From a virus: a stretch of DNA of 64,000 bases. The notes under the pieces are model-generated. The model was given only the letters and a program-made list of their open reading frames with translations, was not told where the DNA came from and made no database searches. Both the position numbers and the translations under genes were made by a program. Numbering within the stretch: position 1 is the first letter of the stretch; each line of letters begins with the position of its first letter. Positions 2,556 to 31,500 of the stretch are shown here, piece by piece. The DNA lies in the IMG/VR virus record IMGVR_UViG_3300033146_004128, positions 62,001 through 126,000 of that record; one strand, 5' to 3'.

Positions 2556-3632
2556 ATGAAGATCACAAAACATGTTGACTTTGACAGTCTCCTATCTAAA
2601 ACAGCATCAAGAGAAGATATAATTGAAGCCCTAAAGATAGATGATGAACTTAAAGATCAGCAGAATGATAAGACAGCAGAGACTAAATCGGAAAAAGCTA
2701 TGGCAGACACAGCTCAAGTGGGTGCACTCGGAGCAGGTGCAGTAGCATACGCAGGACATGCAAGAGCTAAGAAGCAGCTGGGCAAGCTTGGTAAGAAGCT
2801 CAAGAAAGCCAAAGATGCAGAAGCATATGCATCAAGACCTTTGGGACAAAAAGTGAAAGATTACTTTTCCGACATGATAAAAGGTCCTAAGAAGAAGAAG
2901 CCTCTAAGTGAGAAGATCATGAAGAAGATGAACAAGGTTAACGCTAGAGGCAAAAAAGGTGCGCTTGTTGCTATGGGAGCAGCCGGTACTACAGCAGCCA
3001 TTGGTGCATACAGATCATACAAAGGCAACAAGGACAGCCAGGGAAAGCTTGACAAGACTGCGGCCTCAGAAGAAGTTCGTGGTCAGATTGCCAATGATGT
3101 AGAGAGAGATAGTACACCTGAGGGTGGTGCCAAGTATAGAGGTACTCAGGGTGCAATCGTTGGTGGACTTGCAGGGTTTATGCATGGTGTGTCAAAGAAG
3201 AGCCCAATCAAAGGCAAGAAAGCAAAAATTGTAAGAGGGCTATGGCACGGAACATCTGGAGCAGTATGGGCAGGCGGTGCCGCTGGTGCAACTACCTATG
3301 CTAAAAAGAAGCTAATGCCTGACAGCGCAGAAGACAAGCAGAAAGAGTTTGAAAGCAGATTGGAGAAGAGAGCATCTGTTCCTATCGCTGTAAAAACAAC
3401 ACAAAAAGGGAAAGGTCTCGTAGCTGCCATATCAGGGCTATTCAAGAAGAAAACTAAGCCAACACTTAACCAAGGAAGAATAGCCAAAAGCCCTCAACAG
3501 AGAAAGCTTGAAGCTCAAGCAGCAAGCAAGAAGAGGAGCGTAAAGAAGATCAATTACGGTGAAGCTTACAGTATGGACAACAACTATAAAGACTTACAGA
3601 AGATGAGAGGAATACAAAGCAGATGGTCGTAG
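2556..3632 (+). CDS. Basic Gly/Ala-rich probable virion protein
   Basis: The ATG has GAAGGA 5 nt upstream. The 358-residue product alternates lysine-rich segments with short glycine/alanine-rich hydrophobic segments (about residues 53-67, 135-151, 199-211 and 228-247) that could be membrane-active helices. Short motifs of the form K-x-A-S occur at residues 15-18 (KTAS), 167-171 (KTAAS) and 271-274 (KRAS), a pattern also found in the 3928 and 4894 products. No family is recognised. Position at the start of the head cluster and similarity in style to the 3928 product suggest an internal or ejected virion protein; this is inference. Confidence 0.65.
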   Translation: MKITKHVDFDSLLSKTASREDIIEALKIDDELKDQQNDKTAETKSEKAMADTAQVGALGAGAVAYAGHARAKKQLGKLGKKLKKAKDAEAYASRPLGQKVKDYFSDMIKGPKKKKPLSEKIMKKMNKVNARGKKGALVAMGAAGTTAAIGAYRSYKGNKDSQGKLDKTAASEEVRGQIANDVERDSTPEGGAKYRGTQGAIVGGLAGFMHGVSKKSPIKGKKAKIVRGLWHGTSGAVWAGGAAGATTYAKKKLMPDSAEDKQKEFESRLEKRASVPIAVKTTQKGKGLVAAISGLFKKKTKPTLNQGRIAKSPQQRKLEAQAASKKRSVKKINYGEAYSMDNNYKDLQKMRGIQSRWS

Positions 3633-3928
3633 AAAAACAAGCCTCAACAGCAACAGGCAGAAGAGTTGCAGAACTTATGGGCATGGGGCAAGCGTCTCGT
3701 GCCACTAAGGTATTACGAAAGAGTATGGGAACAAAGCATGTCAGCACAGGTGATGTCCTTCGCACTAAGTCTATTCGAAAAGTGAAGAAAGAAGAGATAC
3801 CAGGAATAGGAACACTCAAGACAGTAAAGAGAAATACTCCAAAGGAAGACAAGTCAGTAATAAGACTAAGGTCAGCACGATCAAAGAATAAGCCATTATT
3901 CATACAAGATAAAGTAAGGGGCAAATAA
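3623..3928 (+). CDS. Small basic protein of unknown function in the head cluster
   Basis: This 101-residue frame starts inside the last codons of the previous gene (10-nt overlap) and ends at the start codon of the next, so it fills the gap exactly. A purine-rich AGAGGAA lies about 12 nt before the start, which is only a fair ribosome-binding site. The protein is basic with serine, threonine and lysine throughout and has no recognisable domain. Translational coupling to its neighbours is likely from the overlaps. Confidence 0.55.
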   Translation: MVVEKQASTATGRRVAELMGMGQASRATKVLRKSMGTKHVSTGDVLRTKSIRKVKKEEIPGIGTLKTVKRNTPKEDKSVIRLRSARSKNKPLFIQDKVRGK

Positions 3929-4893
3929 TGAAATACTCGGTAAGAAATACCAAGGCATTAGAGAAGAGAGCAGGCACAGTAGTAAATATCCATAATGGAG
4001 ACAGCAACAAAGATGATACTCCAAAGGGAGAGAACGCAGTAACTAAGGGACTAAGAGCAGGTGCCGGTGCTGGTGCTGCTGCCACTGTTGCGAGAGGTGT
4101 CATAGAAGATCATGAGGGTGACACAGTCCTTGGTCATGCTAAGAAGCTAAAGCAACACAAGGCTGATGCCAAGAAGAATGCAGAGAAGGCAAGTGCTGCC
4201 AAAGAGAAAGCTCACTCATTAAAAGACAAGTGGTTTGCATGGGGAGAGAAGTCTAAAGCTCAGAAGAACTACAGGTTCTACAAGAGTAGAGAGAAGAACT
4301 ATGCAAATACAGCAAAGAAACTCTCTAAGAAGCTATCTTCTTCAGCACGAGCTAAACTTGCATTGCCGGCATCAGTAGGTTCTGCATTGGCAGGAGCATC
4401 ATACTTCACATCGAACAAAGATGAGAGAGATGAGGCACGTAAAGCTAAAGAGCAGAAGTCACTAAAAAAGACAGCAGCAGAGAAGAAGAAAGACCAGACA
4501 GCCAATAAGGTTGGAGCAGCACTTGCAGGAACTGTTGCCGGTGGTGGAGTTCTTGGTGGATACTCTGCATACAAAGGTGCACAGGATAAAGAAGATGGCA
4601 AGAACAATGTAGGTAAGCACGCTGCAGGTCACGCTGCATTAGGTGGAGCTGTTACATACAAAGCTGTAAGCAGTATGGAAAAAGCTCATAACGCAGCAGT
4701 AGATGCACATAACAAGAAGCTAAGGAATACATTCAAGCAGGTTGGTAAACTGAAGATAGGGAAAGGTAAGGTTGCTGCCGTAGGAGCAGGAATTACTGGA
4801 GCACTCGGAGCAGGAAGATATGCTGCAGGAAGATTATTCACAGATACTCAAGCGAAAGACAAGACAAAGTCTGTAGCGAAAAAGGAAAAATAG
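3928..4893 (+). CDS. Basic Gly/Ala-rich probable virion protein
   Basis: The 321-residue product has the same design as the 2556 product: lysine-rich helical stretches separated by glycine/alanine-rich hydrophobic segments at about residues 42-57, 143-158, 194-213, 230-245 and 280-298. EKRAG (12-16) and KKTAA (180-184) echo the K-x-A motif of the neighbouring proteins. The stop codon directly abuts the next ATG. I do not recognise a family. The repeated amphipathic pattern suggests a protein that contacts membrane or DNA during ejection, but this is inference only. Confidence 0.65.
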   Translation: MKYSVRNTKALEKRAGTVVNIHNGDSNKDDTPKGENAVTKGLRAGAGAGAAATVARGVIEDHEGDTVLGHAKKLKQHKADAKKNAEKASAAKEKAHSLKDKWFAWGEKSKAQKNYRFYKSREKNYANTAKKLSKKLSSSARAKLALPASVGSALAGASYFTSNKDERDEARKAKEQKSLKKTAAEKKKDQTANKVGAALAGTVAGGGVLGGYSAYKGAQDKEDGKNNVGKHAAGHAALGGAVTYKAVSSMEKAHNAAVDAHNKKLRNTFKQVGKLKIGKGKVAAVGAGITGALGAGRYAAGRLFTDTQAKDKTKSVAKKEK

Positions 4894-8105: not shown

Positions 8106-9935
8106 ATGGGATCAACGTTTAGTGGAAAATTATACGACAGAAGGTTTATGGGTAAGTATAATAACCTATCCAGTGTATACGCAGACATTCTGCCAAATGA
8201 TATCAAGGAAGTCATACAGTGGTCAGAGTTCATTGTAGCAAACGTACCTACTGTAGCATCAGCATTGGACAAGATGTCAAGTGTTGCCATTACAGCTCTA
8301 CAGTATATGACGTCAGACCTTACAGAGATGTCTTCGACAGACGCTAAGTCATGGAAGAATATCCTTGAAGAAGAAATGGACATAGAAGAGAAGCTACAAG
8401 AGATAGGGTTCAACTATCTTCTTAACGGTAACGTATTCCTATCTGTGTTCTTCCCAGTACATAGAACTGTTACATGCATGAAGTGCAAGACTTCACTGTC
8501 ACAGGAGAGATTCTCTTCAGTAAGCAAACTGAAGCCAGAGATGGAAGAGATGCTAGTGCAGAACAATGGTAAGAGAGACGGAAAGAAGATGCCAGGAGAG
8601 AAACAGCACTCAAAGAAGAAGGTGTTGGTATTCAAGGGTGCTTGTCCTGCCTGTGCATCAAAGTCAATATTCACCATACAGGACATAAAGGTGAAGAATA
8701 TGCAAGGGGTAAATGTTGTTAACTGGCCTGTGAACAGTATGAACTTCGTATCTGACAACATCACAGGTAGGAGTACATATTACTACAAGATGCCAAACTC
8801 AACAAAGAAGATGATCACTTCAGGGTTCCTTGACATGCTATTCCATCAGCCATTAGATATGATAGAGTCAGCAGTAAACAATACAGCAGTAAAGTTTGAT
8901 CAGGATAAGATTCTACATATAAAGAGAAAGAAGATGTCCGGGACAAACACAGGATGGGGAATGCCTATACTTACCTCATCGATACCAGAGATGATCTCTC
9001 TACTCTTGCTTAGAAAGTCTCAAGAGAGAATACTATCGGATATGATATTCCCGTTACGAGGATTGTCACCAAGGGCAGCAGGGTCTGATGGTAACGCAGT
9101 GTACAACTTCATGTCCGGAAGTGACCTGACGAAGAAGGTAGAGGCTATTCTGATGCAACATAAGAACAATCCTACCTCTGTAAAGTTCTTCCCTATACCT
9201 CTAGACCAAGTGAATGCATTCGGAGAGGGTAAGGCACTCAACCTAAGCGAAGAGATAGACCAGATATCTACAATGATTATGACTTCTATTGGTGTACCTA
9301 TTGAGTTCGTAAAAGGTGGTCTTGGATATACAGCTGCCGGTGCATCTATTAGAGTGCTTGAAAACCAGTTGATGGGACTAACAAACTCTATGGAGAAGGT
9401 AGCAAACTTTGTAGCCAAGCAGATAGCAACATTCACAGATAAGAAACAGGTAAGGATTAAGATTACTCCATTCAGAATCATCGATGACCTTGCAGAGAAG
9501 CAAATCTTACTTCAAATGTACCAAGGACAGAAAGTATCAGATCACACTATGGCATCTATGTTCAAGCTCGATGCGAAGACAGAGAACGACAGAATGGAAG
9601 AGGAAGCAAAAGCAGGTGCAAGAACACAGGCTGCTGTGCAAGAGTATATGCAGAACATATCTCAGAACCTCGAAGAGAAGGCAAAGACAGAGGCTATGCT
9701 ATCTCAGAGTTCTACTCAGCAAGTCAATCAACAAGCTATCATGCAAGAGGCAGATCAGATGGCAGCACAGTTACAGCAGATGGAATCCGGGCAGCGTAAG
9801 TCAGAGATGGATCGTCTTCAGAAAGAGAACTGGCTATTATATGTTGCTACTAAGGAACGCATGGAGTTCAATGGTCGCAAGGACGCTACACAGGCTGCGC
9901 AACAACAACAAGCTGAACAGCAAGGAGGAATGTAA
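8106..9935 (+). CDS. Portal protein with an inserted zinc-ribbon-like motif
   Basis: AGGAGATAT precedes the ATG. The 609-residue product has the layout of tailed-phage portal proteins, the dodecameric ring at the capsid vertex through which DNA is packaged and ejected. Support comes from an N-terminal helical and beta region, the middle segment with IDQISTMIMTSIGVPIEFV followed by GLGYTAAGASIRVLE, and a long C-terminal helical, Gln-rich tail after about residue 480. Unusually, two CxxC pairs (CMKC 124-127 and CPAC 180-183) bracket a basic insertion, which looks like a zinc ribbon. The portal assignment is from pattern recognition and context. Confidence 0.8.
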   Translation: MGSTFSGKLYDRRFMGKYNNLSSVYADILPNDIKEVIQWSEFIVANVPTVASALDKMSSVAITALQYMTSDLTEMSSTDAKSWKNILEEEMDIEEKLQEIGFNYLLNGNVFLSVFFPVHRTVTCMKCKTSLSQERFSSVSKLKPEMEEMLVQNNGKRDGKKMPGEKQHSKKKVLVFKGACPACASKSIFTIQDIKVKNMQGVNVVNWPVNSMNFVSDNITGRSTYYYKMPNSTKKMITSGFLDMLFHQPLDMIESAVNNTAVKFDQDKILHIKRKKMSGTNTGWGMPILTSSIPEMISLLLLRKSQERILSDMIFPLRGLSPRAAGSDGNAVYNFMSGSDLTKKVEAILMQHKNNPTSVKFFPIPLDQVNAFGEGKALNLSEEIDQISTMIMTSIGVPIEFVKGGLGYTAAGASIRVLENQLMGLTNSMEKVANFVAKQIATFTDKKQVRIKITPFRIIDDLAEKQILLQMYQGQKVSDHTMASMFKLDAKTENDRMEEEAKAGARTQAAVQEYMQNISQNLEEKAKTEAMLSQSSTQQVNQQAIMQEADQMAAQLQQMESGQRKSEMDRLQKENWLLYVATKERMEFNGRKDATQAAQQQQAEQQGGM

Positions 9936-13304: not shown

Positions 13305-14375
13305 ATGAGTAACAAAAAAGTTTTACTATATAAAGACAAGATGGCTCCACTTACACATAGAGAATTGGATGACAACTTTGAGCTATTGGGTGCCAAGGCA
13401 GATGGAACGTTCTCTGGAGACTTTGCTATTGTGCTTGAAGGAATGAAGAGCGAAGACTATGTGAACCTTAGTAATGGTGCAGGTCACGCAAAACTGGAGG
13501 GACCTTGCCCACTATACGATAGTGACGGTAGTGCTATGTATCCTATAGAAGGTGAGATAGGAATAAAATTTGATCCTTCGACAGGAAGAAAGTCTTTTGT
13601 GTTGCTACCAAATGATGAAGATATGGCTCTATCTCCAAACGGACAGATAATTGCATCAGCAGGTGGGAGTAGAATTGTAATATCTTTTCTTGAAGATGAA
13701 AAATTTGGAGAGTTTTCGTTACCTGCTGGTTTTACCTCCCAGACATATTGTTGGTGGAAAGATGACGAAACACTATATGTAGCTGGCCACAGATATACTG
13801 ACATACTTGTACTGAAAGTTGATCTAACTAAAGACTCTCTTCTTGTGCTAGATAGTACCATGTCCGATATGTTGCCGGTAAACAAAAGAGGGGTCGTTCT
13901 TAGTGGAGACTATGCATGTTCCTATGACTATTCCAACAATAGCATTGTGACTGTTCATATTTCTACAGGTACAAAAGCGGTATTACCAGAAGAGTCAATA
14001 TCAGCTACAGCAGAATTTTTTGCCATATCTTTAATTGGGATGAAAGATAACAAGTCAATGTTTATAGGAATAGAGTATAACATGAATGAAGCTGGGGATA
14101 ATCTAGATATAGGATCCCTAGCTGTTGTTGGTATAGCCTTGGACGTGAACGGGTCTTTTACAAAGATGTATGATATGGATATGTCTGTTCTTGAGTCAGC
14201 AATGCTACTAAGCGATGATAATGAATTTGTACTTCAAAGACATGTCGTCCAAGGAAAAGAGTTCTATAAGCCTACATATCAAGAATTTTTTACAGGAATA
14301 TACATCCCAAATGAGGATAGATGTTTAGGTATAAACACGCTTTCTCAGGAGATAGCAGTTAAAAAAGGCAAATAA
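13305..14375 (+). CDS. Fibre-type protein with a beta-propeller-like body
   Basis: AAGGAAAT precedes the ATG. Near the N-terminus, residues 7-29 contain KDKMAPLTHRELDDNF, a form of the motif [KR]xxxxLTxxELDxNF found near the head of many phage fibre and tail proteins and seen again in the 19160 and 20875 products. The rest of the 356-residue protein consists of repeated strand patterns such as LSPNGQIIASAGG, ETLYVAGHRY and SGDYACSYDY, spaced like beta-propeller blades. It probably binds a surface ligand or another fibre, which is inference. No enzyme motif was seen. Confidence 0.65.
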   Translation: MSNKKVLLYKDKMAPLTHRELDDNFELLGAKADGTFSGDFAIVLEGMKSEDYVNLSNGAGHAKLEGPCPLYDSDGSAMYPIEGEIGIKFDPSTGRKSFVLLPNDEDMALSPNGQIIASAGGSRIVISFLEDEKFGEFSLPAGFTSQTYCWWKDDETLYVAGHRYTDILVLKVDLTKDSLLVLDSTMSDMLPVNKRGVVLSGDYACSYDYSNNSIVTVHISTGTKAVLPEESISATAEFFAISLIGMKDNKSMFIGIEYNMNEAGDNLDIGSLAVVGIALDVNGSFTKMYDMDMSVLESAMLLSDDNEFVLQRHVVQGKEFYKPTYQEFFTGIYIPNEDRCLGINTLSQEIAVKKGK

Positions 14376-14376
14376 C

Positions 14377-15171
14377 ATGACATGGATAATCACAGACCTG
14401 ACATCGAGTGGCTATGGAGTATATGTAGATCTTCCCTCTGATACAGAGGAGACCGCATGTACTGTAAAAGAGATATATACCGGGATGACATATCCGGTTG
14501 GCGATGAGTGGAGAATGGTGTCTGAGCCAATCGAAGGTCACAACGGAAGCGTTCAGGGTGGAACATACGTAGCTAATGGATATGTTGCATCGGGGTACAC
14601 AGAAATAGAGGCTGCTCCAACTTACACAGAATCAGGATATGTGGCAGCCGGATACGTTGAAGGTGGATCACCTATACCTGCTTCTTATGTGGCAGCCGGA
14701 TATGTAGCTTCTGGGTATACAGAAGGTGGAGCGGTAGTATGTACTATAGGAACCAATAATGATCTAGCTGTTGACGCAGGATTTGTTGACGCAGGCTACT
14801 TTGAAGGTGACGAGGGACAGAGTAATTATGTTGCTTCAGGATATGTTGCCAGTGGATATCTTCCTTCTGCAGACACCGCATGTGGTATCTATGTTGAAGA
14901 GGTAGAAGGAGTCTGGGAAAGATGGATAGTTGACCCAGTAGACTCTACATATGTCAGATCAGGGTTCTTCGCTGAAGACATAAACCCAACTCCATGTGTG
15001 CCATACACAGAGGAAGAAGACGATGATATGTTCAGTTCAATATACGGACTGTATCCTTTCGGGGACCAAGTACCTGCACTTCTAATAAATAAGAGCCTGA
15101 ATAGACTGTTCGGATCAAGAGTCCCAATAAAAGAGAGACCAGATATTGGCCACTCTGTACTAGGGAGATAG
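14377..15171 (+). CDS. Virion-type protein with tandem YVAxG repeats
   Basis: The 264-residue product contains a run of short repeats of the form Y-[VT]-x-[SAN]-G-Y: YVANGYVASGYTE at 64-76, ESGYVAAGYVEGG at 85-97, SYVAAGYVASGYTEGG at 103-118, DAGFVDAGYFEG at 133-144, YVASGYVASGY at 151-161 and YVRSGFFAE at 192-200. These are not classical pentapeptide repeats (A[DN]Lxx) or collagen Gly-x-Y. An acidic patch and a more ordinary globular C-terminus follow. The gene is 1 nt from the next gene and so may share its transcript with the two-component genes. The role is unknown; a repetitive surface or fibre protein is likely. Confidence 0.65.
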   Translation: MTWIITDLTSSGYGVYVDLPSDTEETACTVKEIYTGMTYPVGDEWRMVSEPIEGHNGSVQGGTYVANGYVASGYTEIEAAPTYTESGYVAAGYVEGGSPIPASYVAAGYVASGYTEGGAVVCTIGTNNDLAVDAGFVDAGYFEGDEGQSNYVASGYVASGYLPSADTACGIYVEEVEGVWERWIVDPVDSTYVRSGFFAEDINPTPCVPYTEEEDDDMFSSIYGLYPFGDQVPALLINKSLNRLFGSRVPIKERPDIGHSVLGR

Positions 15172-15172
15172 T

Positions 15173-15676
15173 ATGGGATGGACAGACTTATTTAAGTCCA
15201 AAGAGGCAGACACTCTTAAGGACATAGACAAGATAGTAAAAGACCTAAAGGATCTTCAGTTGAGTATAATTGAGTTCACAAATGATTCCTCTATAGATAT
15301 GGAGATATCAGAGATGATAGGGAAGCTTAAGGCACAGAACCCAGAGAATGTAGATCCTGAAAAGCTTATGGAGTTTCTGGCTTATCTTAGCGACAAGACA
15401 AAAACAAAGAGTGACATGACACAGAGCCACTATACTGACACAATGATGAAGGTTATTCATGCTAAAATAGAACTGCTTGCAATATATCATACCGGTGTAG
15501 TAAGAGGTAGTGTGATAAGGCAGATATTCTCAATGTCTTCAGTATGGCCTATTCTATTCTCGCTTGTGTTTATTGTGGCTATCCTGATAGGTACACACAA
15601 GTATGATCCGTCTTTGTTTCGTGACTTAGGGATATCAGGACAAAGAACAGTAAAGACAGAAGGAACTTCAAAATGA
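15173..15676 (+). CDS. Single-pass membrane protein upstream of the two-component genes
   Basis: GGGAG lies 4-5 nt before the ATG. The 167-residue product is helical and charged for the first 110 residues, then has one clear membrane segment at about residues 121-141 (SSVWPILFSLVFIVAILIG) followed by a short basic tail. There is no signal peptide or lipobox. Its stop codon overlaps the start of the receiver-domain gene by 4 nt (ATGA), so it belongs to the same unit and could be a membrane partner of the kinase. That link is inferred from gene order only. Confidence 0.65.
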   Translation: MGWTDLFKSKEADTLKDIDKIVKDLKDLQLSIIEFTNDSSIDMEISEMIGKLKAQNPENVDPEKLMEFLAYLSDKTKTKSDMTQSHYTDTMMKVIHAKIELLAIYHTGVVRGSVIRQIFSMSSVWPILFSLVFIVAILIGTHKYDPSLFRDLGISGQRTVKTEGTSK

Positions 15677-16305
15677 TATCTTTTTTAAGAAAAATAATGA
15701 GCCCAAGTGAAGAGACAGTAGACTCAAAGAGTATAGATGATATCCGGGAGAGAATGGCTAATCATCTTAAGGATACAAAGACTCCAGCTCTCAAATATCC
15801 AGACGGATTTGCCTCTGACAGGAAGACGGTAATTATACTTGATGACAGTGCAGGTGCAACTATGCTGTTTGATGACACGATACGAGAACTTCAAAAGAGT
15901 GGGGAGAACTGTGTAAACGAGATACAATTCGTAAAGATAAGCACACCTCAGGCAGTATTTATGCTTAAGAATGAAGTTAACAGAGGAAACTTGTCAAACA
16001 TAGTAGGTGCAGTGCTTGACATTACAATAGGAGGATATGCTATAGTTGATGGCAACACGGTTATCTTGGACGGTATCGATGCCTTTGAATTTCTTAGCTC
16101 AAGATTCCCTGAGGCAGAGATGAGGTTCTTTACTTCTCACTCTATGAACGAGAAGAACGCAGAGATATTCAGGTTTATGCAGAAATACAAGAAGCTAACT
16201 GGTGAAGACATTACAGGTAAGACATACATAAAAAATCCGTTCTCTACCAACAGAATAGACATGATGAGAGATATACTAGAGAGTATATGTAATGCAAAGA
16301 ATTAA
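15673..16305 (+). CDS. Stand-alone response-regulator receiver domain
   Basis: The 210-residue product has a receiver (REC) domain at about residues 50-200. The required residues are in order: the acidic pair D57-D58 in VIILDDS, the phosphoacceptor D116 in GAVLDIT, T154/S155 in FFTSHS, and K187 with the following P189 in IKNPF. No DNA-binding or enzymatic output domain follows, and there is a 50-residue N-terminal extension, so output would have to be by protein contact. The gene overlaps the membrane-protein gene by 4 nt and the histidine-kinase gene by 14 nt, which argues for a coupled pair. Confidence 0.85.
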   Translation: MISFLRKIMSPSEETVDSKSIDDIRERMANHLKDTKTPALKYPDGFASDRKTVIILDDSAGATMLFDDTIRELQKSGENCVNEIQFVKISTPQAVFMLKNEVNRGNLSNIVGAVLDITIGGYAIVDGNTVILDGIDAFEFLSSRFPEAEMRFFTSHSMNEKNAEIFRFMQKYKKLTGEDITGKTYIKNPFSTNRIDMMRDILESICNAKN

Positions 16306-17704
16306 AACATTTGTTGACTCATCGAGCGTAACATTCGCTGCCAAGTTCTTCTTTATGTTCGGTATCATTTATACCCTAGTAGTGAGTATAGCATTTCTTG
16401 TAGTTGTTGACGAGTGGAAGCAATATGCGAGCAGTGGAGTATATGCTGTAGAAAAGAGCGAGGCTCATGCTATAGATGTGTGTGACATACTTCAGTGTGA
16501 GTATATAAATATTGATGGAAGTATGATATATAGGATATCAAAAGGTGAATATGACGTAAAGAAGCTTCCGGAAAATAAGGTTATGGAGGCGATAAACTCA
16601 ATCCTTACTGTCGATATACCAAGTCATACAAGTGGTGTTACATTTGGATTCTCACTAGAAAACATAATAAAATTCTATGCCAATGCCGTTACAATACTCT
16701 ATTCACTACTCATGATACTGTCATTACTCTTCCTGGTGCGTTTTTTGATTAAGAACAATATCAACAATCTAGTTCAGGGAGCAAGCACAACAGCGTCATT
16801 GCACAATAAGAATATGGCTATATTAGCAGAGCAACTTCATCATGAATTGAATACACCACTATCTGTTGTAAAAGAGCTTTGTGACAAGATATTCGTCAAC
16901 GTAGAAAGAGATGCAACATGTGGTGTTGGAGATCCAAAAAAGAGATCAGCATGCGACAAGTGTGAGGCAGCGAAAAACTACTCTCAACTTAGTGTGTACA
17001 AGAGAATAATAGACAACAATATAAAGCAAGCATTTGTATTCATAGAGAGAATGGCAGATGTAAAACAGATACGATATTCCAATGGTAATAAGAGCGTATA
17101 TGACATAACAAAAGCAACCTTTGATGTGATGGGCGTATTCAATAGAGCAAACTACTCGTTTGATGTAGATCAGAAGCTAAGAGGATACACCCTAGATCAT
17201 GCCTCCGGGCTTCAGAACCATGAGCTAATGAATATACTCCTGAACCATATTAAGAACTCTCTAGAAGCAGGGTCTAGTCATATATTCATATCCCTTAACA
17301 AGATAGAACCTCCAAAGAAAACCTCATTAGACAAGATAATACTAAAAACTATAGACATACTGAATAAGTACAATATAGGTGTACCAACATACGCATCAAT
17401 AGTAATGCTGTCTAAGATGCTTAGTCCAAAGGTTAAGTCAGGTGTAACTATTGCAAGGATAGCACTCATAGATAATGGATCAGGTATACCTAAAGAATTT
17501 CAAGCCAATATATTCAATCTTAACACGTCTACAAAAACAAAGGATGGAGTCATACGTGGCGCAGGTCTATATCTAAACAGACAGATATTAAGAGATGCCG
17601 GCGGAGACATCTGGCAACATGACACAAGTGGAAAAGGGACAACCTTCATATTGGACGTTCCAGTAGCAGCTGCCTCGAAAGAGATGTTCCTCTATGGGAC
17701 ATAA
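16292..17704 (+). CDS. Transmembrane sensor histidine kinase
   Basis: The 470-residue product has two membrane segments (about 16-39 and 128-153) around an extracytoplasmic loop of roughly 90 residues. A cytoplasmic part follows with an H-box LHHELNTPL (phosphoacceptor H184, E185), a dimerisation region with a CGVG...ACDKC cysteine insert (C210, C221, C224), an N-box MNILLNHIKNSLEAG (N322), a G1 box LIDNGSGIP (D394-G396) and an F/G2 region ending IRGAGLYLNRQIL (G423-G425). The HATPase part has a longer than usual spacing between N-box and G1 box. All catalytic residues are present. The partner is the receiver protein next to it. The signal it senses is unknown. Confidence 0.9.
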   Translation: MQRIKTFVDSSSVTFAAKFFFMFGIIYTLVVSIAFLVVVDEWKQYASSGVYAVEKSEAHAIDVCDILQCEYINIDGSMIYRISKGEYDVKKLPENKVMEAINSILTVDIPSHTSGVTFGFSLENIIKFYANAVTILYSLLMILSLLFLVRFLIKNNINNLVQGASTTASLHNKNMAILAEQLHHELNTPLSVVKELCDKIFVNVERDATCGVGDPKKRSACDKCEAAKNYSQLSVYKRIIDNNIKQAFVFIERMADVKQIRYSNGNKSVYDITKATFDVMGVFNRANYSFDVDQKLRGYTLDHASGLQNHELMNILLNHIKNSLEAGSSHIFISLNKIEPPKKTSLDKIILKTIDILNKYNIGVPTYASIVMLSKMLSPKVKSGVTIARIALIDNGSGIPKEFQANIFNLNTSTKTKDGVIRGAGLYLNRQILRDAGGDIWQHDTSGKGTTFILDVPVAAASKEMFLYGT

Positions 17705-19159: not shown

Positions 19160-20110
19160 ATGCAATCAATTAATGTGCATGATGCAGAAGAACTACAGAT
19201 AGGTGAGACCACGCTAAGCAGTCTTAATGCTGGAAAAATATACAAGATAACTGCTAAAAAAGGTCACGTGTATACAATGTCAATGAAAGCTCCAGACGGG
19301 AACTATATTTCACTTCGTGGATTCAATGCATATGGATACGAAACACTTAGCTCTTCAGCATATGGTGAAGAGTATAGTAGTGAGATAGAGATTCAGCTTG
19401 AGGAATGGGAAGAAGAAGATACTCCAGTATTCTTTGAGCTTAATGCAAACTCAGGAGACTATACTGGAACTGTTAAAATTTCTGAAACATTCGTGACCCT
19501 TCGTGAGAAGAAAGGAAAGTCTCTTACTCATTCTGAAATGGATAACAATTTCAGAATGATGGATAAATCAATGCGTGTCCTTGAAGAGAAACTCTGGTCT
19601 AACAGATTTATACCTGAACATACTGCACTATTTGCACAGGGGATAATGGGAACCGTGAATCCTGGGTCATCAGGATCAGCGTCTCTATTCCAGATATCAA
19701 CGGATGACTTTGAAGAGGATGATCTCATAATGGTTGAGATGAAGCTCATGGTAAGAGAAGCAGGAACGTCAGTACCATTCACACTAGTCAATACACTGTC
19801 AGTTTTCAAGGTGTTGGCTAATGGTGAAGTAGCAGAAGAGGACTTCCAGTATATGTCTGGGCCTTATGACTTTGCTACAATAAAGCCTGCCGTGTATGGT
19901 AGTGAAGACAGCAACATAGGGTACAGCGAAGAGTCAGTTACTCCAGAAGGAGAAGATGCTATAGAAGTTGAGTATGTTGGAACACTAAGCTTCAGTTCGT
20001 CGTCGTCACCTAGTGCTCCACAGACATATTATGTTTATGACTCAGAAGATGGGTCAGGTAGTGGTTCCGGAAGTGGTTCTGGAAGTGGTTCTGGAAGTGG
20101 TGGGAAATGA
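19160..20110 (+). CDS. Fibre-type protein with Gly-Ser tail
   Basis: AGGAGAAAG precedes the ATG. The 316-residue product has an N-terminal beta domain of about 110 residues, then REKKGKSLTHSEMDNNF (residues 115-131), the same fibre motif as in the 13305 and 20875 products. A helical connector and a second beta domain follow. The C-terminus ends in seven or more Gly-Ser dipeptides encoded by a 12-bp tandem repeat (about 20057-20100). The overall design matches the 20875 product, so the two are probably paralogues. The glycosyltransferase gene overlaps its stop codon (ATGA). Confidence 0.65.
   Translation: MQSINVHDAEELQIGETTLSSLNAGKIYKITAKKGHVYTMSMKAPDGNYISLRGFNAYGYETLSSSAYGEEYSSEIEIQLEEWEEEDTPVFFELNANSGDYTGTVKISETFVTLREKKGKSLTHSEMDNNFRMMDKSMRVLEEKLWSNRFIPEHTALFAQGIMGTVNPGSSGSASLFQISTDDFEEDDLIMVEMKLMVREAGTSVPFTLVNTLSVFKVLANGEVAEEDFQYMSGPYDFATIKPAVYGSEDSNIGYSEESVTPEGEDAIEVEYVGTLSFSSSSSPSAPQTYYVYDSEDGSGSGSGSGSGSGSGSGGK
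20057..20100 (+). repeat. 12-bp tandem repeat encoding a Gly-Ser tail
   Basis: GGAAGTGGTTCT and close variants are repeated head to tail at the 3' end of the fibre-type gene, encoding (Gly-Ser)n. Such repeats can change copy number by slippage, always in multiples of four residues without shifting the frame. Confidence 0.7.
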
Positions 20111-20802
20111 TAACGGTAGTCTATCCTCTTATTAAAGCAGAGAGAGATTGTGAGGAGTTTCGATACTCTCTAAGATCTCTTGAGGCAAATATGCAAGAGG
20201 AATTCAGAGTATACGTGATAGGGCATAAGCCTTACTGGTGCACAGGGGTAGAGCATATACCATACTCTGATGCAGGAGAGAAGCAGCAAAATAAGAACAT
20301 AAAGGCACTTATAGCATCATCTCTTGCCGATGAATTTCTATGGGTGAGTGACGATATGTATATTGATGAGCCTGTATCAATAGATGAACTCTCTAAACAG
20401 TACTATCTTGAGGTGTTCAGTGGCATCAAGAAGGGAAGAGTAAAAGGGTTCAAGGCAATGCTATGGAGAACCTATGATAAGGCAAAAGCACTTGGCCTGC
20501 ATGGGCTAAACTATACTACACATACACCGGTACTATTTAATTCTGAAAAGCTAAGAAGAGCGATGGTTGATTTCGGTGCAGTAGAGAATGGATTACATCT
20601 TGAGACTCTATATCTGAATCATATTGGTGCAGAGAAAGATGCCATCAAAATAGGTAGCGAGAAAGTTGGCAGATATAGCAACAGTGAATTTCGTGGTGCC
20701 AAAGATGCTATATATTTGAGTTTTGACGATGCCGGAAAGGGCAGTGGAATATTCAAGTACATCAAGGCTAAGTATAAAAATAAAAGCAGATTTGAAATAT
20801 AG
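20107..20802 (+). CDS. Glycosyltransferase-like protein (GT-A style)
   Basis: The 231-residue product begins MITVVYPLIKAERDCEEF, followed by RYSLRSLEANMQ, FRVYVIGHKP and FLWVSDDMYID, where D82-D83 act as a DxD-like metal and sugar-nucleotide site. The order resembles GT-A fold enzymes including the Stealth-type capsule transferases. It overlaps the upstream fibre-type gene by 4 nt and so is co-translated with it. The substrate is unknown; the acceptor could be a virion protein or host surface glycan. Confidence is moderate because only the N-terminal half carries recognisable motifs. Confidence 0.6.
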   Translation: MITVVYPLIKAERDCEEFRYSLRSLEANMQEEFRVYVIGHKPYWCTGVEHIPYSDAGEKQQNKNIKALIASSLADEFLWVSDDMYIDEPVSIDELSKQYYLEVFSGIKKGRVKGFKAMLWRTYDKAKALGLHGLNYTTHTPVLFNSEKLRRAMVDFGAVENGLHLETLYLNHIGAEKDAIKIGSEKVGRYSNSEFRGAKDAIYLSFDDAGKGSGIFKYIKAKYKNKSRFEI

Positions 20803-20806
20803 GCAG

Positions 20807-20848
20807 TACCAGTTAGGTATTGTAGCCATATACTATTTCTGCTATAAT
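20807..20848 (+). promoter_or_regulatory. Extended -10 promoter with an upstream operator-like site
   Basis: TGCTATAAT lies at 20840-20848, 26 nt before the next start codon. Upstream, TACCAGTTAGGTAT (20807-20820) resembles the operator core TACCAGSCTAGGTAT found twice at 163-220, but it is one base shorter, so the match may be chance. Confidence 0.55.
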
Positions 20849-20874
20849 GACAAAAAACAATAAAAGGACAACAC

Positions 20875-21987
20875 ATGCCAGTATCAGTACCAATAACAAC
20901 AGAGGGTCAATTCCTAAACAACTTAGATTTTGCAGAGTTTGGGTTTGCGCCATCAGTAGACGGAGTATATAATATTACATTGTTTGCACTAAATGATAGC
21001 TACACTGCAGCAGGGGAACTTACTCCATCAGCTCGTGTTAACGGGGACATAGTAAATGACAAAGACGGAGACCCAGTTGATACATCAACATCATACTCAC
21101 TAGAAAGAGGCGAGTTCTGTACCATAGCTATCCCACTCGTAGCAGGGGGAACGGTATATATTCAGACAGGTGCAGCCAAGATAGCAGGTATTGTTAGACT
21201 TGAAAAGCCTTTCATCTCAAGAGAGGCAAAAGGGTCAGAACTTTCTTTCGAAGAGATGGATGCGAATGTTGCGCTAGGTAAGGAAGCAATATTTAGATTG
21301 GAGCAGGATGAATTAGAGGCTCTAGCAGAGAAGCATTCAGTTGAGCCTGCTGCTAAGACACTTATCCCTAATGGAGATATAGATGCATTCTTTGATGCGA
21401 TGTCATCAAACTATGTTAGTAGACCGATTCAGCTTGGAACAGATGATAATGGTCAGTTCGGGTTTGGATATATGCAAATAGATGAATATGCAGGAAACTT
21501 TGTTGTAAGAATGCCTATCCCAGGATTTGACTCAGTATTCTCTCCAAGTTCAATGCTTAGCTTCGGCAAGGACTATTATGACAATTTATCCATTACAGAA
21601 TGGACTATAGAGGCTGATGAGTATGGCTCTAGTGGTTGGGTAACTTCAACTGTTACAAATGCAGATCTTGTGGCAATGAAAGAAATCGCTGAGCTCGATA
21701 TAGGCCAAGGAGAAGAGCACATTGTACTAATGGCATTCGCAGGGGATAACTACCTGGCACCTCAGATAGGAAAAGGATTTGGAAATTTCGGATACGACTT
21801 TAGCGACAGCCCTATGCCATACTCAGAGCCTATGCATCCTGCTGAAGTATGTGGAGTACCAAACAGAGTTCTTACAACAGTGTCTATGACCGTAGGACAA
21901 AAGAACATTAGGGTTGCAAGATGGTGCGCCATGAACATCGACGAGTACAACAACATCACATTTGACCCATCAGCACAAGCGGGCTAA
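20875..21987 (+). CDS. Fibre-type protein, paralogue of the 19160 product
   Basis: The 370-residue product has an N-terminal beta domain of about 110 residues, then ISREAKGSELSFEEMDANV (residues 114-132), the same motif and position as in the 19160 product. A helical connector and a beta-rich C-terminal domain with several aromatic and glycine residues follow. AAAAGGACA precedes the ATG. It stands between the two glycosyltransferase genes and could be a target of their activity, which is inference from gene order. No depolymerase or lectin family was recognised. Confidence 0.65.
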   Translation: MPVSVPITTEGQFLNNLDFAEFGFAPSVDGVYNITLFALNDSYTAAGELTPSARVNGDIVNDKDGDPVDTSTSYSLERGEFCTIAIPLVAGGTVYIQTGAAKIAGIVRLEKPFISREAKGSELSFEEMDANVALGKEAIFRLEQDELEALAEKHSVEPAAKTLIPNGDIDAFFDAMSSNYVSRPIQLGTDDNGQFGFGYMQIDEYAGNFVVRMPIPGFDSVFSPSSMLSFGKDYYDNLSITEWTIEADEYGSSGWVTSTVTNADLVAMKEIAELDIGQGEEHIVLMAFAGDNYLAPQIGKGFGNFGYDFSDSPMPYSEPMHPAEVCGVPNRVLTTVSMTVGQKNIRVARWCAMNIDEYNNITFDPSAQAG

Positions 21988-21989
21988 GC

Positions 21990-22622
21990 ATGAGACATGA
22001 CAACTTAACAGCTGTCGTAACTCACTACAATACACCGAGAGACCTGCTCGTCAGGGCTCTTGCCTCTCTAGATAAATTCAAAATACCATATATCATTGTT
22101 GATGACGGAAGCGACCAAGAATTTGTTGATGGGCTACGTGAGTTTGGCGACAGGGTGATATACCTGAAGAAGAACATAGGTCAAGCACAAGCATTTTATA
22201 CTGGAGCATATGCAGTAAAGACAAAATGGACTCTAAAACTAGATAGTGATGATTATATCACAGACCATCCAGTATATGACGATACTCATGATGCACATGT
22301 TCCTAAGATAAAATACGATGCTCCTATAACACACAAAGGATTGATGGCTGTACCATATTGTTACTTTTCAGGATCAGTTATTAAGACATCATTTTCATGT
22401 GCTTCATATGCTAAAGTCACCAGAAGATTAAATGATGATGTTGAGGCGTATGCACACTTGATAGGTCTTGGAGCAAAGATAGCTACATATGAGTCTAGTT
22501 GGTATAAGTATGCATCAGACAAGCCTAAGAGCGTGTCTAAATCACACAATATATCAGAAAAAAAACAGGCACAAAGGGAAATAAGACAATTAATAACAGA
22601 AGAGTATGGAGAGTTCGTATGA
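21990..22622 (+). CDS. Family 2-type glycosyltransferase
   Basis: The 210-residue product has a clear GT2 (GT-A fold) N-terminal half: LTAVVTHYNTPRDLLVRAL, then IIVDDGSD (D38, D39), a KNIGQAQAFYTG segment, and LKLDSDDYI with the DxD metal site D85-S-D87. Family members transfer a sugar from a nucleotide donor. The C-terminal half is short, and the 210-residue length is compact for the family. The next gene overlaps the stop codon by 4 nt (ATGA), so it is translationally coupled to the radical SAM gene. The acceptor is unknown. Confidence 0.8.
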   Translation: MRHDNLTAVVTHYNTPRDLLVRALASLDKFKIPYIIVDDGSDQEFVDGLREFGDRVIYLKKNIGQAQAFYTGAYAVKTKWTLKLDSDDYITDHPVYDDTHDAHVPKIKYDAPITHKGLMAVPYCYFSGSVIKTSFSCASYAKVTRRLNDDVEAYAHLIGLGAKIATYESSWYKYASDKPKSVSKSHNISEKKQAQREIRQLITEEYGEFV

Positions 22623-23338
22623 TAGCTGATGTGCAGATGGAAATAACAACGGTATGTAATATGGCATGCTTCTATTGCCCTATCGAGGACATGCCACATA
22701 AACATATGGATCTTGCGCTGGCCAAGGAGATTGTTGACCGGTATGATAAAGGTTCAATGTTCATGCTCAATGGTACCGGAGAGCCAACATTGTATCCGCA
22801 TCTTCTTGAGCTTGTTACTTATATTGTGGACAATGGGAAGCTAGCAAACTTCATTACAAACGGAGTGAACTGTGTAGATGAGGACATACTTAGATTGCTT
22901 GATCACATAGCCTTCTCTGTTGATGACTCAGATACAGACAAGAATGTGAAGACACTAGAGAATGCAGAAAAAGCAATACGTCATGCATGCTCAATAATTG
23001 GAGGCGGAAAAGTTTCTACAATGACTGCTGACTATGGTCAAGATTTGTCAAAGATAAAAGCATTCAGTGAAGAGCTTGGGTTCACGATGAGAAAGCAGAG
23101 GCTGCAACCAAAGGCGTCATATCAAAAGAAGTATTCTATACCTGGGCATAAGCCAAACAGGCTTGAATGTCCATATATAAAGTTCTCGTATATGGATTTC
23201 TATTTTCAGAACGGAACAAAGGCACCATGCTGTTTCATGGTATATGAAGAGCAAAGCATGTCACGTGATGAAGTTGAGAAATCCCTTAATAAGGGAATAG
23301 TTCCAGAGTGCTGCTCCGGATGCTACTTAATGAAATAA
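22619..23338 (+). CDS. Radical SAM enzyme with SPASM-like C-terminus
   Basis: The 239-residue product carries CNMACFYC (C13, C17, C20), the CxxxCxxC site that binds the [4Fe-4S] cluster and S-adenosylmethionine, and NGTGEPTLYP (about residues 51-60), the GGEP-type SAM contact. The C-terminus has C184, C204-C205 and C231, C232, C235 in an arrangement like a SPASM or twitch auxiliary cluster. Enzymes of this kind modify peptides or sugars by radical chemistry. Overlap with the GT2 gene suggests a joint modification pathway. The target cannot be told from sequence. Confidence 0.85.
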   Translation: MIADVQMEITTVCNMACFYCPIEDMPHKHMDLALAKEIVDRYDKGSMFMLNGTGEPTLYPHLLELVTYIVDNGKLANFITNGVNCVDEDILRLLDHIAFSVDDSDTDKNVKTLENAEKAIRHACSIIGGGKVSTMTADYGQDLSKIKAFSEELGFTMRKQRLQPKASYQKKYSIPGHKPNRLECPYIKFSYMDFYFQNGTKAPCCFMVYEEQSMSRDEVEKSLNKGIVPECCSGCYLMK

Positions 23339-28578: not shown

Positions 28579-31500
28579 ATGACAAGTCTTAACAGGGATC
28601 ACAATGAGATAAATGAAGCTATTCACAATGAGATAGTTAAGGCTTTCGAGGGAAGAAAGGTAGAGGGAAAGACAAAGACTCTTGAGTACTCCAATGTGAC
28701 AGGAGCAAAAGCAGACATGTCATACCGAAAGCTAACAGATGCAATAAACTCAGGTGGAACAATAGCTAGAAAATATAAAGCTGATGTTACGATAAGAGAT
28801 AACGAGACCGGTAAAGTACTTGATAAGAAGAGTGGTGTACATATAGGGGAGACTCCAATTTACACAAAGAAGGGTGGGTTGGTTGTTGACGGGAATACAT
28901 ACAACCTTCCTAGCCAGATAAGACTTAAGCCTGGTGCGTATACTCTCAACAAGGCAAATGGCGATGTTGAGACTATGATGAACGTAAAGAACGGAAGAGG
29001 TATGAAGCTTGTATCTCCTCAGGACAAAGATGATGTAAAATTGCAGATAGGTTCAAGACAGTTTAATCCTCTTGATGTCGCAAAGATACTTGGTGCAACG
29101 GATAAGGAATTGTCATCAAACATAGGTAAAGATGTTGCTGCTCACTTAAATAAGAAGTCGAATGTTGAAGGAACAGCACTTAAGCTATCTCAGACCCTTG
29201 GGCTTGTCGGTCCAGACATAACACCTCCACACAAAGAAGTGATATCAAATCTACGAGATTATTTTGGAAAGACTGAGCTAGATACAAGCGTAACTACTCA
29301 TACACTTGGAAGGGCAATAGATAAGATTGATAAAGATGCGATAATGCTTGGTATCAAAAGGAATGTTGCTGTCAAGAGAGGGACAGAAGAGGAAGATGAC
29401 AAAGAAAACCTAATGTTCAAGAAGATTATCCCTCCAGAGAAACTTATGGTAGAGGGTGTAAAGAGGGACCTAATGAAGCCAGAGGCAAGAATGAAAGGTC
29501 TTCTGAATAACCCATTTAACCATGCAAGCATAACAGAGGTTCTTTCTGAGCCTACATTGAAGCATGCAGCAAAGAAGTTTGTGACAACAAGTGCGATCTC
29601 AAGAATGCCTGAAGAGTACAATCCATTACATACATTGCAAGGGAGTAGTGATATAACTCCATTGGGAGAAGGCGGTATAACATCTACCGAGATGATAACA
29701 CCATCTGTAAGGTCACTACACCTATCACAGCTTGGATTTATAGACCCTATAAAGTCTCCAGAGGGTGCAAACACTGGAGTCACATTAAGTACGACTCACG
29801 GGGCTTATATAGACGACAAGGGTAATGCTGCCATGAAGGTTAAGAACTTAAAGTCTGGGAAGATTGAGACAAAGACTGTGGCAGACCTATGGGACAAGAA
29901 GATAGCGTTCCCTGATCCAAACAAAAAAGGAGAGGTTGGCATAAGACACAAGAGCGATATCAGTGTAGGCAAGATGAAAGATGCTGACTATCAGATAACG
30001 CACTCTGAGAATATGTATGGGCCGGCTATGAACTCTCTTGGAATAATAAGTTCAAATGACCCAACCAGAAACCTTATGGCATCAAAGCATGTCATGCAAG
30101 CACTTCCTCTTGTTGATGGCGATGCTAACCCGGTAAGTCTGCTTGGAGCAAATGGAAAGAGTATGCTAGCAAACATAGCATCGAAGCACTTGCCTACTGC
30201 GAGTGTTTCCGGGACTGTTACAAGGGTTGATACTAGAGCTGGGAAGATACACTATAAAGATTCGTCTGGAAAAGAACACAACAGTGACTACGCTATATCT
30301 CCAATGCAATTAAATACAAAGACTTTCATACAGCATTCTCCTATAGTTAAAGCAGGAGACAAAGTAGAGGCAGGACAGGCTCTCGCTGATTCAAACTTCT
30401 CTAAGGGTGGAGAATTGGCCATAGGAAAGAATCTTAGAACAGCATGGATGATGTACCCAGGTACAAGAAATGATGCATTCGTATTGTCTGAGTCTGCAGC
30501 TAAAAAGATGACATCGGTACACTCTTCAAAGTTTGATATAGATGGGACAAAAGGTACGATACTGGATAAGAAGAAGTTTGCAGCCATGTTCCCAGAGGTT
30601 GTTAAGAAGATAAGCCTTGACAAATATGATGACAGGGGGATAATTCTTCCTGGTCAGACAGTGGCTAAAGATGAACCAATCGTTCTAGGCATGAAAAAGA
30701 TGGATCCATCAGAGGTCAGATTTGCAAATGACAAAGTAAAAAAATTACTATATGGCGGAATGGCACCGGTTATGCAAAAATGGAAGGGAGACAATTCAGC
30801 AACCATATCTCATGTCACAACCAAAGGATCCCAGCATAGAGTTATTGCTCAGTACAAGGCAGAGATGAAGACTGGAGATAAGCTTGCAGGTAGATCTGGA
30901 AACAAAGGTATTATCTCAGCTGTTATCCCAGACAAGGAGATGCCTAGAGATGAGAATGGAAAGCCTATAGAGCTTATACTTGGTGGTGCTGGTGTTAACT
31001 CAAGACAGAACCCTGCTCAGATCATAGAAGCTCAACTTACGGAGGTAGCAAAGAAGACAGGGAAGAAGTACGTACTTCCTCACTACACTCATGATGATCT
31101 TCATATATTTGCAAACAACGAGGCAAAGAAGAACAATGTGAACATGTATCATGAAATATACGACCCTGTAAGAAAGACCAAATTGAAGAATAAGGTATTT
31201 GTGGCAGACTACAATGTAATGAAGTTGTTCAAGCAGGGAGAGGGGACATACTCAGCAACAGGTCATGGCCCGGTTGACTCATTGAACCAACCGAAGAAAG
31301 GAGGAAAAGAGTCTGCGGCATCGATATCTAATATGGAGATAAACTCTCTATTGTCACATGACGCAAGAGACTTCCTCAAAGAGGTTGGAACAGTAAAATC
31401 ACAGAGAAACCAAAAGTGGTTCTCTGCATTTGAGTCAGGAGCTATACCGCCTGCACCTGAGAAGAAGTCTGCTAGGGACAATTTTCATGGGCTTCTGAAC

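Follow-up and report, generated by a model that had tools for sequence, protein, structure and literature searches.

Once infection has started, lytic phages are commonly regarded as blind to outside changes, with lysis inhibition as the textbook exception. Virus-encoded histidine kinases and receivers are nonetheless not new, given that they are already known from the AgrC of phage phiCDHM1 (PMC3901668), from the phaeoviruses (PMC12993054), and from annotated phage response regulators. In the Clostridium difficile phage phiCDHM1, the AgrC-like kinase comes without a response regulator, and a relay into a host regulator was proposed for it by those who described it (PMC3901668). In the open-access literature, no paper was found on a phage-encoded pair of kinase and regulator of the kind described here, which is encoded together with a third, membrane-anchored protein.

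The window, i.e., the whole stretch of 64,000 nucleotides that was analyzed, corresponds to bases 62001-126000 of a 187,664-base virus record. Its plus strand carries a run of genes that spans a portal gene (8106-9935), whose product is 25-28% identical to the portals of Salmonella phage Arash and of three Vibrio phages, through the gene of an RNA-polymerase-beta-like protein (28579-32826). Three tightly packed genes lie within this run, in the order TMP-RR-HK:

15173..15676, plus strand: TMP, tail-anchored membrane protein of 167 aa (open reading frame, hydropathy)
15673..16305, plus strand: RR, stand-alone receiver of 210 aa (open reading frame, AlphaFold2 fold, Foldseek, conservation)
16292..17704, plus strand: HK, membrane histidine kinase of 470 aa (open reading frame, Pfam, family profile)

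The TMP and receiver genes overlap by 4 nt, and the receiver open reading frame precedes that of the kinase and overlaps it by 14 nt. The GC content and codon usage of the three genes are those of the neighboring phage genes. The genes flanking the cassette, putative fiber genes, gave no family match, and scans for promoters and terminators gave results at chance level only.

The surroundings of the cassette have several features of their own. The RNA-polymerase-beta-like gene and a beta'-like gene (Rpb1 domain 5, L033:18416-19963) are present, as they are in Arash-type phages, and a Cpn60/GroEL-like chaperonin is encoded in the same phage genome (L032:10967-12403, Pfam 6.1e-19). Genes for Stealth-like, family-2 glycosyltransferase, and radical-SAM proteins are found amid structural-type genes at 20107-23338; the cargo among the structural genes of the close relative lacks the Stealth-like and radical-SAM genes and has a QueC-like gene instead. 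An E-L/M-D-x-N-F/V-type motif is common to three otherwise unlike proteins (13305-14375, 19160-20110, and 20875-21987), and is perhaps a common attachment element. The gene at 14377-15171, which adjoins the conserved cassette, encodes repeated Y-V-A-S-G-Y-V-type motifs and is fast-diverging (37% identity).

The following features were located in the kinase:

16325..16420, plus strand: first transmembrane segment (TM1), aa 12-43 (hydropathy)
16481..16498, plus strand: periplasmic C64-x4-C69 (present in 9/9 homologues covering the region)
16664..16762, plus strand: second transmembrane segment (TM2), aa 125-157 (hydropathy)
16841..16855, plus strand: H-box, H184-E-L-N-T188 (pattern scan, conservation)
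16880..16963, plus strand: C197, C210, C221, and C224 around the dimerization hairpin (conservation)
17243..17257, plus strand: N-box, N318-H-I-K-N322 (conservation)
17471..17485, plus strand: G1 box, D394-N-G-S-G398 (Pfam, conservation)
17558..17566, plus strand: G2 box, G423-A-G425 (Pfam, conservation)

The H-box sequence HHELNTPL is the only match to H-E-[LIF]-x-x-P-[LIM] among the window open reading frames of at least 100 codons on both strands. A profile built from the ten members of the kinase family matches the known kinases FixL (1.6e-12), ZraS (3.1e-12), and HK853 (4.7e-12), and its alignment to HK853 runs from the H-box through the ATPase domain. Residues H184, E185, T188, N318, N322, and D394 are invariant in all ten kinases, and G396, G398, G423, G425, and G449 are invariant save in G016, which lacks the G1 box, and in G014, where the contig ends earlier. 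The assignment of HK as a HisKA/HATPase_c sensor kinase is secure at the level of sequence. The H-E-x-x-T motif is associated with both kinase and phosphatase activity.

Approximately 80 residues separate the two transmembrane segments, and hydropathy gives a sensor topology in both close members of the family. In the sensor domain these two proteins share only 30% identity, and yet C-x4-C is kept wherever the region is covered; our guess is that this periplasmic pair forms a disulfide. The four cysteines around the dimerization hairpin, in a loop that is 31% identical, occur as a set only in the window phage and its close relative, and are a possible metal or redox site. The AlphaFold2 model of the full kinase, built from two sequences, reached a pLDDT of 39 and was used only as a hint of topology.

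For the receiver, no significant match by sequence was obtained in Pfam, NCBIfam, or PDB, and for this reason the predicted structure was used instead. The features placed in this way are:

15841..15846, plus strand: acidic pair D57-D58 at the end of strand 1 (model, conservation)
16018..16020, plus strand: D116, predicted phospho-acceptor at the end of strand 3 (model; invariant in 9/9)
16021..16074, plus strand: beta-hairpin insertion after the phospho-acceptor, aa 117-134 (17/18 residues identical in the close relative)
16132..16134, plus strand: T154, conserved Thr/Ser at the end of strand 4 (model, conservation)
16231..16233, plus strand: K187, conserved lysine just after strand 5 (model, conservation)

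The AlphaFold2 model was built from two sequences and is of modest confidence, with a mean pLDDT of 68 and a pTM of 0.69 for the best of five models and a pLDDT of 44-52 for the other four. The predicted fold is (beta-alpha)5, with the order of strands and helices found in receivers. Nearly all of the best Foldseek matches of this model in the PDB are receivers, with a probability of 1.00 and Spo0F on top, and the matches to Spo0F, FleR, DrrB, and NtrX have target-normalized TM-scores of approximately 0.6. Across the nine receiver homologues D57, D58, D116, and K187 are invariant. The two closest members share 94% identity in the hairpin that follows the phospho-acceptor, versus 68% in the whole receiver domain, and an N-terminal extension of approximately 49 aa is mostly of low confidence in the model. 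No output domain was found, given that the protein ends after the fifth helix in both the open reading frame and the AlphaFold2 model; in particular, it lacks the DNA-binding output domain that defines the regulator of a transcriptional two-component system.

The first-pass annotation had described a complete, intact two-component pair, and the open reading frames, their overlap, the kinase boxes, and residues D57/D58, D116, T154, and K187 are all as it described. Judged from these motifs, kinase and receiver are both intact, with all catalytic residues present. The profile search that it had proposed supports the pair in part: HATPase_c matches the kinase with 1.6e-11, above the curated cut-off, HisKA has no match in the window kinase and a sub-threshold one (E 0.21) in the close relative, and Response_reg (PF00072) has no match in the window receiver, in the close relative, or in four further homologues. 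The receiver had been called from its residues, a call that is upheld by the AlphaFold2 fold, by Foldseek, and by conservation, and that the sequence searches did not recover. The protein is classed as a receiver, with modest confidence, by its predicted structure and against the profile result. Of the listed T154/S155, position 154 is T or S in the homologues, and position 155 is S only in the window phage and its close relative and G elsewhere.

The third gene of the cassette, TMP, had been missed in the first pass, as had the wider phage family. Hydropathy predicts a cytoplasmic helical part, one transmembrane segment at approximately aa 117-145, and a short C-terminal tail. Family searches returned no known relative of this protein. 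The same architecture is encoded upstream of the receiver in all nine receiver-bearing contigs, the window included. Given that the receiver has no output domain and that TMP is the constant third gene, TMP would be the best candidate for the target of the receiver, a choice made from gene order alone.

A 62-kb contig (G001, L002), whose portal is 83% identical to that of the window phage, carries all three genes at the equivalent locus; no other close relative is long enough for this comparison. The identity between the two phages is 57% for TMP, 63% for the receiver, and 55% for the kinase; synonymous sites are saturated or nearly so, non-synonymous distances lie at 0.30-0.38, and no frame is broken. 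This conservation rejects chance open reading frames. The finding that had been named as one that would overturn the pair, a recent host insertion not shared by related phages, is likewise rejected by the equivalent locus in G001, the near-saturated synonymous change, and the phage-typical codon usage.

Whole-protein peptide scans of viral contigs found nothing beyond the close relative. A degenerate DNA pattern for HHELNTPL retrieved eight further viral contigs, whose homologous kinase open reading frames align at 24-37% identity; this number is a minimum, given that the scan relied on one exact motif, and all members are metagenomic contigs. A further hit of the pattern scan, L047, is a dUTPase-like protein and was rejected as a chance match. 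A homologous receiver adjoins the kinase in seven of the eight, the eighth (G021) ending inside the kinase gene, and all seven also encode a protein of 101-172 aa with one transmembrane segment near the C terminus, in the order TMP-RR-HK. The receiver tree groups the window with G001, the G017 group, and G014 with G015, and the kinase tree is compatible with these groups, as is expected if the pair moves together. In G017, an extra protein of 198 aa with hydrophobic segments at both ends is encoded between receiver and kinase (L051:1365-1961), and is possibly a separate sensor subunit.

None of the eight further contigs has a portal match to the window phage, and no cassette was found in the distant portal relatives, i.e., Vibrio phage D181, Arash, and IMG/VR contigs. 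The cassette adjoins T4-type tail sheath, tube, and baseplate wedge genes in G014, a gene weakly matching a tail protein (2.2e-5) in the 193.7-kb G017, and a clpX-like gene, recognized by eye, in G016, G018, and G020; G018 and G021 carry a T4-type DNA polymerase. Given that the cassettes of the relatives adjoin sheath, DNA-polymerase, and clpX-like genes, the locus is not tied to fibers, and the function that the first-pass annotation had read from a position between fiber genes is not sustained.

Directly behind the kinase, G015, G016, G019, and G020 encode a protein of 87-98 aa with a signal-peptide-like start, followed by a protein of approximately 400 aa that also has a signal-peptide-like start and ends in a terminal phenylalanine, as in outer-membrane barrels:

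L053:2943-4483, L049:70-1538, L070:6085-7631, and L050:2948-4344: secreted-type and barrel-like genes behind the kinase

Pfam gave no convincing match for either protein, and the short one has a K-S-x-x-G-W-x-R-x-x-N motif. In G016, the kinase lacks the G1 box and the outer-membrane gene is split between frames (L050:4356-5564 and 2948-4081), which is either decay or an assembly error.

That such pairs are rare in phages, as had been stated, agrees with a search of 50,697 phage records, in which no homologue of the kinase or the receiver was found beyond one weak ATPase-domain match. Generic kinase and receiver probes against the phage records retrieved mostly unannotated fragments and bacterial-looking records; one of them, MW462191, resembles bacterial DNA and encodes a glutamine synthetase adenylyltransferase.

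The cassette could also be a bacterial operon that several phages acquired independently, as moron-like cargo with an ordinary host function. The secreted-type and outer-membrane-protein-like genes behind the kinase in four relatives do look like host envelope cargo, and bacterial genomes are weakly sampled. Nonetheless, no full-length bacterial relative emerged from two scans of 84,980 species genomes, which were run with exact peptides of the two closest members, could miss bacterial carriers, and gave ATPase-domain matches at most; the plasmids searched yielded none either. The comparison with bacterial kinases that had been suggested in the first pass sets the ten phage kinases apart, across a branch supported at 100/100, in a tree with sparse bacterial sampling and some very long bacterial rows. 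It held nine to ten bacterial kinases, one of the ten proteins fetched having no recognizable H-box and being dropped, together with the kinase of a 735-kb megaphage, which groups with the bacterial ones. Given also that the cassette is old and conserved in the close relative, independent acquisition seems unlikely. That the genes are a decaying or non-functional remnant, for which G016 with its missing G1 box and split outer-membrane gene could be cited, is very improbable and is disfavored, because the window and the other members, as far as these are sequenced, retain the catalytic motifs, and synonymous change between the two closest members is saturated.

The kinase and receiver might instead plug into host signaling, the kinase phosphorylating host regulators or the receiver draining phosphate from host kinases, and so reprogram host transcription. 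A receiver without an output domain would suit this role, as would the precedent of phiCDHM1, for whose lone kinase a relay into a host regulator was proposed (PMC3901668); PIT4 is a known case of a phage protein acting on two-component systems of the host (PMC10714779). However, TMP, kinase, and receiver stay together across very different phages, which speaks for an internal circuit and makes a role in the host network improbable. A role at entry, with the proteins packed in the particle and the kinase and TMP delivered with the genome, would fit the position of the genes between portal and RNA polymerase and the detection of RNA polymerase and metabolic enzymes among 116 proteins in particles of the distant relative Arash (PMC10585845); for the algal virus EsV-1, a study cited in PMC12993054 likewise reports a putative hybrid histidine kinase in the particles. 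Proteins with two transmembrane segments or a tail anchor would be unusual virion cargo, however, and the cassette adjoins replication genes in relatives, which leaves this explanation quite improbable.

The reading that we favor, with a probability of roughly 0.6, is that TMP, RR, and HK form a phage-maintained, membrane-confined two-component unit at the host inner membrane, with TMP as the partner of the receiver. Its presence in unrelated phages makes it look phage-maintained rather than a stray host gene. In this unit, the kinase would read a periplasmic cue through its small, disulfide-capable domain. Sensing at the envelope, as the first-pass annotation had suggested, is plausible, given that two conserved cysteines are present in the periplasmic domain of each complete homologue. 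The kinase would then autophosphorylate at H184 and pass the phosphate to D116 of the receiver, steps for which the anatomy is seen and the chemistry is inferred. Given that it carries no DNA-binding or enzymatic output domain, the receiver would have to act by binding another protein, and the likeliest one, on weaker grounds, may be TMP.

The fuller reading is tentative and has somewhat less than even odds: a virus-evolved TMP-RR-HK cassette, common to T4-type and RNA-polymerase-carrying large phages, would sense the periplasm during infection and act directly on a phage membrane effector for lysis timing or superinfection, with no transcriptional output. That the benefit lies in adjusting the envelope of the infected cell to, e.g., superinfection or the timing of lysis is possible and rather doubtful. 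If the favored reading is true, signal transduction at the host membrane would be something that some phages carry out for themselves. The cassette, which is small and compact, lends itself to standard two-component biochemistry, and the family provides a seed profile for measuring how widely it has spread.

With respect to known systems, the kinase shares with the HisKA and HATPase_c kinases of the FixL/ZraS/HK853 type the H-E-x-x-T-P H-box, the N, G1, and G2 boxes, and two transmembrane segments with a periplasmic domain. It differs from them in that the phage kinases form their own long-branched clade, with the HHELNTPL H-box, the periplasmic C-x4-C, and, in most phage members, an R/K-Y-S-N-G-N-K linker. 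The window phage adds the four cysteines at the dimerization hairpin and, unlike the other lineages, has a stretch of approximately 45 aa between its N and G1 boxes. The receiver has the (beta-alpha)5 fold, acidic pocket, phospho-acceptor Asp, Thr/Ser, and Lys of stand-alone receivers such as Spo0F and CheY, and is unlike them in its N-terminal extension of approximately 49 aa, its conserved beta-hairpin, and its failure to match the Response_reg profile. The response regulators of uncultured Caudovirales in BFVD, matched by fold only, indicate that phage receivers exist.

Among viral systems, the agr locus of phiCDHM1 likewise includes a phage-borne sensor kinase gene, but it consists of quorum-sensing genes of proposed host origin, and no receptor domain was identified in its kinase (PMC3901668). 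The 735-kb uncultured phage LR756501 also encodes a kinase and a receiver, in this case as a kinase-receiver fusion of 737 aa with no obvious transmembrane segment by eye, which groups with bacterial-type kinases. The hybrid histidine kinases of the phaeoviruses EsV-1 and Feldmannia are virus-encoded sensory kinases with receiver domains as well, whereas they are hybrid fusions from viruses of eukaryotic algae, with no known link to TMP or to the kinase family of the window. What appears to be new is a discrete cassette of kinase, receiver, and membrane partner that is kept across different phages.
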